Shown here one piece after another: positions 35,429-55,828 of a stretch of 64,000 nucleotides of DNA (position 1 is its first letter; every line of letters starts with the position of its first letter). Under the pieces are notes generated by a model, which was not told the DNA's origin, did not search any database, and saw nothing but the letters and a program-made list of their open reading frames with translations. The position numbers and the translations under genes were made by a program. The DNA comes from Candidatus Saccharimonadota bacterium (GTDB lineage Bacteria > Patescibacteriota > Saccharimonadia > Saccharimonadales > Saccharimonadaceae): the NCBI GenBank assembly GCA_017511205.1, contig JAFWLE010000004.1:1-64000 (forward strand), in the 5' to 3' direction.

Positions 35429-35578
35429 GGCTTATTGCTTAATTCATCCATACTGAAGGATATAAAGGCAAAATCTGCCTCTGGCGGATTTTGCCGCCGC
35501 AAGGGCGGAGCAATGTGGTAAAATTTCTTTACCACATTGCGGAGCTCCTGAAATATGGATGAATTAAGCTATAAGACC
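35429..35578 (+). ncRNA. Structured intergenic element, copy A
   Basis: One of three related elements. Terminal helix GCTTAATTCATCCATA (35437-35452) with 35554-35569, further pairing outward; then, after GA, AGGA/TCCT close a junction of three hairpins: P2 CAAAATCTGCC-TCT-GGCGGATTTTG (35469-35493), P3 CCGCC-GCAA-GGGCGG (35494-35508, GNRA loop), P4 GCAATGTGGTAAA (35510-35522) with 35528-35540, thirteen perfect pairs. GGAGCTCC follows. It fills the divergent gap between the HTH gene and the 35656 gene, 14 bases before the latter's -35. Confidence 0.75.
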
Positions 35579-43298: not shown

Positions 43299-43310
43299 TT
43301 CGATTAAATC

Positions 43311-43451
43311 TTGTTGAATAATTCATCATATCGAAGGATATTAAGACAAAATCTGTCGAAGGCAGATTTTGCCGCCGCAAGGGCGGAGCGATGTGGTAAA
43401 ATTTTTTTACCACATCGCGGAGCTCCTTAAGATTGATGAATTATGAAACAA
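43311..43451 (+). ncRNA. Structured intergenic element, copy B
   Basis: Same layout as copy A. Terminal helix TTGTT..ATAATTCATCA (43311 on) with TGATGAATTAT..ACAA (to 43451); GAAGGATATTAAG; P2 AAAATCTG ... CAGATTTT; P3 CCGCC-GCAA-GGGCGG; P4 GCGATGTGGTAA (43388-43399) with TTACCACATCGC (43407-43418), where a G-C pair replaces the A-T of copies A and C; then GGAGCTCC. It lies between efp and the pilM promoter. Confidence 0.75.
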
Positions 43452-43483
43452 AATTTAGTCACTAATTATTTGTAATTTTTCGC

Positions 43484-54171: not shown

Positions 54172-55110
54172 TTATTTCGTTTCGCTGTGAAATTTCTCAT
54201 GCACCTCTTTTAGGTGTGCATCCGTTACGTGCGTATAAATTTGTGTTGTTGAAATATTAGCGTGTCCCAGCATCGACTGCACTGCCCTGAGATCCGCTCC
54301 GTTCATCAGAAGATCTGTTGCAAAGGAGTGTCGTAAAGTATGTGGCGATACGTGCTTCGTAATCCCCGCTAATCTGGCATACTTTTCAATAATTCGTTCT
54401 ACCGACCGCGCTGTGATTCGCCGGTAATTACCCGAAGTGTCCGCTGTTTGCAAGTTCTTCGAATTGTTTAGAAATAGCGCCGGTAGGGAATCAGTTCTTG
54501 CATCTAAATAGTCGCGTACTCTATCTGCGCAAGCCTCACTAATAAAGATTGGCCGGTCTTTACTGCCTTTTCCTCTTACCATGAACTCTCGTCTTTCCAA
54601 ATTAATCGAATCCCGATTTAATCCTACCAGTTCAGACACTCGTAGGCCACCAGAGTATAAAAGCTCAATGATTGCTCGGTCTCTCAATCCTGATTCGGTT
54701 GACGTGTCCACTTCTTCCAACATTTCCTCCACCTCATCAAAATGCAAGAAAGTCACCTGCTTTCTGATTACCTTAGGAAGTTCCACTAATGACGGATCGA
54801 GTGACTTTATCTCTCGCCTTGCTAGATACTTCAAAAACCCCCTTAGAGCTATTAAATGATATGCCTGGGTGATTACTTTCAAATCCTCCTCTCCGTTTTC
54901 TGATCCATAGCGATTCAGTTTTAAACGATATTTCCTCAGTAGCTCCTTCGTAATATCACTTGGCTTAATTTCATCCTTATTCAAGATTTCCTGCGCAATC
55001 TCTAAAAATCTTTCCAAATATAATCTGTAATTATCGATGGTCTTCTTGCTCCGCCCCGCCTCAATTTCCAGATGCTCCAAAAATTCATTAATCAGATCAT
55101 AGATATCCAT
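54172..55110 (-). CDS. xerD: XerC/XerD-type tyrosine recombinase
   Basis: 312 residues. N-terminal SAM-like domain (about 1-95), catalytic residues Arg in SGGLRVSELVGL, His-x-x-Arg in SPHTLRHSFATDLL, His in MLGHANISTTQIYTHV and the nucleophile Tyr in the same block. Length and sequence fit a chromosomal Xer that resolves dimers with FtsK rather than a phage integrase. Minus-strand TGA-TATAAT (55117-55122) ends six bases before ATG; these six read GAAGGT. Confidence 0.9.
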   Translation of the reverse strand: MDIYDLINEFLEHLEIEAGRSKKTIDNYRLYLERFLEIAQEILNKDEIKPSDITKELLRKYRLKLNRYGSENGEEDLKVITQAYHLIALRGFLKYLARREIKSLDPSLVELPKVIRKQVTFLHFDEVEEMLEEVDTSTESGLRDRAIIELLYSGGLRVSELVGLNRDSINLERREFMVRGKGSKDRPIFISEACADRVRDYLDARTDSLPALFLNNSKNLQTADTSGNYRRITARSVERIIEKYARLAGITKHVSPHTLRHSFATDLLMNGADLRAVQSMLGHANISTTQIYTHVTDAHLKEVHEKFHSETK

Positions 55111-55135
55111 ACCTTCATTATATCAGAAAAGACAT

Positions 55136-55271
55136 CGTTTCATAATTCATTCATATTGAAGGATATAAAGAAAAAATCTATGATTTTTTCGCCGAAAGGG
55201 CGAAGCAATGTGATAAAATCTTTGATTTATCACATTGCGGAGCTCCTGAAATATGAATGGATTATGAAACG
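55136..55271 (+). ncRNA. Structured intergenic element, copy C
   Basis: Terminal helix CGTTTCATAATTCATTCATA (55136 on) with ATATGAATGGATTATGAAACG (to 55271), one G-U. GAAGGATATAAAG; P2 AAAAAATC ... GATTTTTT; P3 TTCGCC-GAAA-GGGCGAA, a different GNRA loop; P4 GCAATGTGATAAA (55205-55217) with TTTATCACATTGC (55226-55238), in which A-T replaces the G-C of A and B; GGAGCTCC. It lies between xerD and ndk and abuts the ndk promoter. Confidence 0.75.
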
Positions 55272-55312
55272 TGGCTAATTAAGATGTGATATAATTAAGA
55301 AAAAGGAGTTTT

Positions 55313-55828
55313 ATGACAAAATCACAAGATTTTATTCAAAGAAGTTTAGTAGTTCTAAAGCCGGACACCGTGCAACGGGGAATTATCGGCGAAGTGATTC
55401 AGCGTTTTGAACGCGTTGGTCTCAAAATTGTTGGTATGAAAATGGTCATGCCAGACGAAAAATTGTACCGTATGCACTACGAAGGCATCGGCCAAATGAT
55501 TTCACGTCGTGGCGAACAAGCTTTCCGTTACAATGTCGAATATATGATGACTGGTCCAGTGATTGCTATGGTGCTAGAAGGCGTCGAGGCCGTTCCGCTA
55601 GTTAGAAAGATTGTTGGCCCTACCGAGCCAAAATCTGCCGAAATGGGCACCATTCGTGGTGATTTCTCTCATATGAGCTTCGGCTATTCCGATGCCAAGG
55701 GTACTGGCGTGCCAAACCTTGTTCACGCTTCTGGGAATATTGATGAAGCCAAGAAAGAAATTGACCTCTGGTTCAATGCTAATGAACTCTATGACTATTC
55801 AGATTTGAACGAAAAATATACTCGTTAA
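55313..55828 (+). CDS. ndk: Nucleoside-diphosphate kinase
   Basis: 171 residues, slightly long for Ndk. Transfers phosphate from ATP to NDPs through a His. Blocks: RSLVVLKPDTVQRGIIGEVI, RFERVGLKIVGMKM, MTGPVIAMVLEG, GTIRGDFSH and NLVHASGN with the catalytic His. The last 20 residues exceed the family. TGA-TATAAT (55290-55295) and SD AAGGAG: one of the genes with a true leader. Confidence 0.94.
   Translation: MTKSQDFIQRSLVVLKPDTVQRGIIGEVIQRFERVGLKIVGMKMVMPDEKLYRMHYEGIGQMISRRGEQAFRYNVEYMMTGPVIAMVLEGVEAVPLVRKIVGPTEPKSAEMGTIRGDFSHMSFGYSDAKGTGVPNLVHASGNIDEAKKEIDLWFNANELYDYSDLNEKYTR

Follow-up and report, generated by a model that had tools for sequence, protein, structure and literature searches.

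Rickettsia palindromic elements (RPE) are long stem-loops of ~105-150 bp with terminal inverted repeats, found in intergenic positions and in frame inside conserved protein genes, where they encode a peptide, in a reduced, host-dependent genome (PMC2229807, PMC10969869). Their target duplications are listed as unknown (PMC2229807). QMITE2 of Coxiella and other MITEs derived from insertion sequences have terminal inverted repeats of 23-29 bp, direct repeats of 7-9 bp, a core of 113-145 bp and a very stable predicted transcript fold (PMC10969869), and REPINs and IS200/IS605-related palindromes are small, hairpin-forming, intergenic and non-autonomous (PMC3116915). The Saccharibacteria element described here is like each of these in part. 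It comes from a different phylum than RPE and is likened to them by behaviour, not by sequence; unlike RPE it shows target duplications, has an insertion sequence as candidate parent and is biased towards one replication strand, the first two features going beyond the Rickettsia case. Unlike QMITE2, it has an interior at least as conserved as its ends, a covarying four-helix topology and a fixed orientation, and unlike REPINs and IS200/IS605 palindromes it has target duplications and resides in a genome where a Y1 transposase was not found.

The window, the whole stretch of 64,000 nucleotides that was analysed, corresponds to contig C12 in a genome (G000) of 796 kb. The presence of copies A, B and C at their given positions and the motifs they share, as given in a first-pass annotation of this DNA, were borne out on re-reading of the sequence (Table 1). 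All three adopt a common fold of four helices (P1, P2, P3 and P4), ordered as a long outer helix P1 (~19-30 bp in intact copies of G000), a tandem G-A step (YGAR/YGAR), the short helix P1b (AGGA/TCCT) and a junction with P2-P4. Minimum free energies were -79.4, -66.6 and -61.5 kcal/mol for copies A, B and C, with z-scores against shuffled sequences of -12.3, -10.1 and -10.4, respectively, and none of 200 shuffles folded equally well. The 5′ arm of copy A pairs with the 3′ arm over 24 bp and can be aligned with GGCCTTGTTGCATAATTC, the active end of both the copies in genome G270 and the insertion sequence described below. Copy B sits ~10 bp past an EF-P-like gene and ahead of a PilM-like gene, and copy C lies between divergent genes for a XerC-like recombinase (-) and a nucleoside diphosphate kinase (+), all named by eye. 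An Rfam scan of the window at the gathering threshold returned tRNAs only, and the best hit of a permissive local search (E 0.019) fell among implausible families, so that neither threshold gave a credible match.

Table 1 Positions of the element copies in the window and of the parts of copy A
Feature	Position	Strand	Covariance-model score (bits)	Remarks
Copy A, entire element	35429..35578	+	129.3	
Copy A, P1 5′ arm	35429..35454	+		Decayed terminal inverted repeat (GGCTTATTGCTTAATTCATCCATACT)
Copy A, tandem G-A step, P1b (AGGA) and junction strand	35455..35467	+		GAAGGATATAAAG
Copy A, P2 hairpin	35467..35495	+		
Copy A, P3 hairpin	35496..35508	+		Loop GCAA
Copy A, P4 hairpin	35510..35540	+		TGnTAnAAT-like motif on 5′ arm (TGGTAAAAT)
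Copy A, 3′ junction GGAGC, P1b (TCCT) and tandem G-A partner	35541..35551	+		
Copy A, P1 3′ arm	35552..35578	+		Decayed terminal inverted repeat
Copy B	43310..43454	+	113.7	
Copy C	55134..55275	+	147.2	

The element had been described as present in three copies; its host genome G000 holds 23 copies or fragments. A covariance model built on 23 sequences, of which G000 supplied 20, detected it in 38 of 174 congeneric genomes, with one to at least 19 copies each, and in none of the genomes sampled from 60 other genera of the same family. This patchy presence is like that of a mobile element. Named relatives matched by exact pattern were Saccharibacteria of yak, sheep and goat gut. Phage and plasmid collections gave no match to the element, viral contigs searched with the exact core pattern contained none, and the open-licence literature yielded no account of MITEs or palindromic elements from Saccharibacteria.

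Recent movement is visible in G270, where near-identical copies occupy different places. The P1 helix of these copies is the terminal inverted repeat GGCCTTGTTGCATAATTC, and direct repeats lie at a constant offset outside GGCCTTGTTGCATAATTC...GAATTATGCAACAA plus four bases. Five copies have 8-bp target duplications (GGCGCCAA, TATATCAT, TCAAGCAT, TTGCGGTT and AAAATCAC), and in a sixth the duplication matches at 7 of 8 positions. Variants with the same ends include 48-bp deletion forms and ~208-bp forms with added sequence in the P4 loop. The former (L154, L158 and L166) are solo palindromes of the two ends only and appear to be internal deletion derivatives; solo P1 palindromes as pre-existing targets were also considered, and G000 contained none. 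Presence/absence polymorphism was seen in a relative of the window's genome (G268, ~78% nucleotide identity in shared genes), in which the sites of copy B and of three further G000 copies (C9b, C9d and C9e) are empty. The site of copy C is occupied in G268. Comparison of window positions 55040-55340 with this G268 locus (L134) revealed a block around copy C that is ~99% identical, against ~77% in the surrounding genes, which suggests a recent homologous exchange.

Within the genus, DDE_Tnp_1_5 (IS903-type) transposases, considered as a possible parent, were found in four genomes. The 1.1-kb insertion sequences of G322 and G248 end in exactly GGCCTTGTTGCATAATTC, all 18 bases being the same as in the element, while that of G317 ends in GGCCTTGTTGCATAATTAG; the insertion sequences of G322, G248 and G317 are flanked by perfect 8-bp duplications (ATGATTGC, TAGCGTCC and CGTATTAG). 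Their proteins, of 335-345 aa, match the IS5 family transposase model NF033579 at 225-262 bits (cut-off 140), as well as PF13737/PF01609. The element is like these IS5-family insertion sequences in its 18-bp end and its 8-bp target duplication and unlike them in having no transposase gene, and no common interior sequence beyond the ends was noticed. An IS6/IS26-type origin, prompted by the end GG..TGTTGCA, was rejected, as DDE_Tnp_IS240 (PF13610) fell below the cut-off in 10 of 10 genomes.

Copies A, B and C are thus very probably copies of a ~140-150 bp MITE, with P1 as its terminal inverted repeats and P2-P4 as its interior hairpins, because G270 shows terminal repeats with 8-bp duplications, the 18-base ends are identical to those of an insertion sequence and a relative has empty sites. 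Features expected of a MITE, namely terminal inverted repeats, an 8-bp duplication, ends matching those of an insertion sequence in an element free of transposase, and presence/absence polymorphism, are present, and dispersal, empty sites, recent duplications, identical ends, in-frame survival and an orientation fixed relative to GC skew are shown directly. These data overturn the argument against a transposon in the first-pass annotation, whose premise that transposon ends keep their sequence between copies fails here, since the arms drift yet stay complementary. The MITE itself encodes no protein and is probably moved in trans by the transposase of an IS5-family insertion sequence with the same ends. 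The role of that transposase is one we infer, because a DDE_Tnp_1_5 gene was found neither in G000 nor in G270 (69% complete), which has the most recent-looking copies; G317 and G322 contain both the insertion sequence and copies of the MITE, the latter with diverged ends. With no transposase found and no target duplications seen among the G000 copies, the family looks old and inactive in the window's genome.

Element orientation is strongly biased. The element strand was C-rich in 129 of 148 copies from 30 genomes and showed the opposite in 19 (p = 3e-21, indicative only as related copies are not independent), and adjacent copies on one contig lay on the same strand in 46 cases and on opposite strands in eight. 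GC skew was read from 1-8 kb flanks, where gene strand is in some cases a confounder. In G000, flanking skew on the element strand was negative for 22 of 23 copies and near zero for the remaining one; dnaA lies near one end of contig C6, which has negative skew throughout and all four of its copies on the + strand. On contig C2 of G299 the element strand flips near 280 kb, where positive skew fades to about zero. The bias was followed by 13 of 15 copies in G270 and was not clear in G250 (3:3) and G315 (3:2). Most coding sequence in the window lies on the element strand, whereas G299 C2 has most of it on the opposite one, and orientation therefore follows replication and not transcription. In bacteria the C-rich strand is usually the lagging strand; from this rule and the position of dnaA we take the C-rich strand to be lagging here.

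Such a bias, with hairpins on one strand, recalls single-strand transposition by a Y1 HUH transposase as in IS200/IS605 or REPIN elements, which would directly explain both the folding and the lagging-strand orientation. IS200/IS605 elements, however, are not known to make target duplications, and the 8-bp duplications of the recent G270 copies largely refute movement of this type. The ends are moreover identical to those of a DDE insertion sequence and Y1_Tnp (PF01797) is absent from G000, and we regard this mechanism as highly improbable. For the MITE the bias is nevertheless a difficulty, as a DDE transposase acting on near-symmetric ends does not by itself explain it; insertion coupled to the replication fork may account for the preferred strand, as might loss of copies after insertion. 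The near-strict orientation makes coupling between DDE transposition and replication testable in a natural data set.

Covariation was assessed over 112 copies in an alignment fitted to the structure, so that the following counts lean towards it, with slid controls far lower. Changes on both sides occurred at 37 of 47 pairs, pairing cells made up 96.2% (81.6% shuffled, 26-48% slid) and the covariation score was 0.453 (0.171 shuffled, 0.04-0.09 slid). The compensatory changes previously read from copies A-C are real, and covariation is strong in the wider alignment. By contrast, the GNRA loop reported as a shared feature is not conserved, the P3 loop being mostly GAAGG (49 copies) or GTAGG (19), followed by GCAAG (13), GGAGG (11) and GAAAG (7). 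Core identity among G000 copies was 0.75, against 0.70 and 0.64 for the arms, and in three of these copies the cores are 98-100% identical while the arms reach an identity of only 0.55-0.76. Conservation of the core at or above that of the ends is unusual for a MITE, and could reflect gene conversion among copies, a strand-specific role in recognition or some remaining function as RNA.

A structured RNA with a regulatory or catalytic function, its fold being under selection and its spread secondary, would fit this deep covariation, the genus-wide conservation of the core and a strand-specific tandem G-A step kept as GA opposite GA in 97 of 112 copies. Selection on RNA should also favour G-U pairs. 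Over all paired cells, 94% were Watson-Crick, with 112 G-U and 55 A-C; G-U was favoured in P1 (75 against 35 A-C), which agrees with an RNA, but not in P4 (12 against 10 among 1220 cells). The two were near even in G000 alone (8 to 6), the excess being significant for P1 only, once further genomes were added. Further points against an RNA are that orientation tracks the replication strand and not the genes, that flanking genes occur in all arrangements, convergent pairs included, that copies lie within coding genes, with patchy presence and empty sites, and that no Rfam family matches. We consider a functional RNA improbable. Of the first-pass reading as an RNA element, the structure, its covariation and its absence from Rfam stand. 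The data do not establish selection on RNA structure, as orientation follows the replication strand and P4 shows no G-U preference. The element offers a clear case in which strong covariation in a repeated hairpin sequence alone does not prove a functional RNA.

For the MITE, arm complementarity may persist chiefly through template switching at the hairpin, by which replication uses one arm as template for the other, together with a measure of additional selection on the element strand to fold. Template switching is reported to create and maintain hairpins that carry compensatory changes (PMC8794818). Alternatively, the arms could be kept complementary by purifying selection on folding, for instance of a transposition or termination hairpin, rather than by template-switch repair. 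The P1 preference for G-U speaks for such selection, the more so as the G-to-A mutation bias expected of a C-rich strand should tilt the counts towards A-C and would make the G-U excess conservative. However, one-sided intermediates are very few (P4 column 106-123 has A-T 64, G-C 46, G-T 0 and A-C 2), a scarcity expected if one arm is repaired from the other as template. In two copies (C3c and L081) the G-A mismatches have turned into perfect pairs, as templated repair would produce, and P1 can extend into host codons, as it does on both sides in the ychF gene of G284. Purifying selection as the main cause is a possibility that we hold tentatively, and arm drift with few G-U intermediates is explained no less well by hairpin-templated repair than by selection on RNA. 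The P1 G-U excess and the retained G-A step suggest that folding of the element strand matters somewhat, and this strand, whether as RNA or single-stranded DNA, may be under some selection to fold.

The 5′ arm of P4 has an extended -10-like motif, TGnTAnAAT, at 71 of 105 sites on the element strand and at two on the opposite strand. It resembles native promoters adjoining several copies, and could be a putative outward promoter.

Several copies lie inside genes. In-frame copies, all with the same strand and frame, occur in ychF (G284), in valS (G254), in a tRNA-methyltransferase-like gene (G209), in dusB-like genes (one site, four genomes) and in truB (one site, two genomes); genes were named by eye, except ychF and truB, which have solved homologues without the insert. 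The encoded peptide is like EGHKGKIYDFAAEGAKRCDKISDLSHREAPE. In most of 60 genomes ychF lacks the insert and aligns as two abutting blocks. The element is sometimes inserted within essential genes without breaking them, and insertion of the Rickettsia type, palindromic and in frame within conserved housekeeping genes, is now found in another small-genome, host-associated group. Of 105 sites, 44 had frame 0 of the core open, compared with 5-38 in the other frames, which is too small a difference to claim selection for coding in the core. One broader account, which we think rather unlikely, would have a folded single strand read by the replication machinery or the transposase, with one-way insertion at the fork, arms kept paired by hairpin-templated copying and a conserved four-way core acting as a strand-specific recognition structure, the same DNA also being able to persist in frame within essential genes.

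Other palindromic inserts were found in frame at the same ychF loop in G029, G025 and G250. A second palindromic repeat family of the genus (core GCGAGCCCCGTAACGACGGGCGCGAGC), likewise in frame inside genes, occurs at or near this loop (L252, L253, L256 and L250), at L039:1668 and twice in an ileS-like open reading frame of G000 (L032:2409 and 3915). The insert in the ychF gene of G029 (L249) is a third, different palindrome, and the loop therefore appears to be a repeated landing place. The P2 loop of one G000 copy (L025:1479-1684, contig C9) contains a distinct structured module, a stem whose internal loop reads AGGAGGA ... (T)GACGACGC; the module is also nested within the P4 loop in the 208-bp forms of G270 (L161, L159 and L168).
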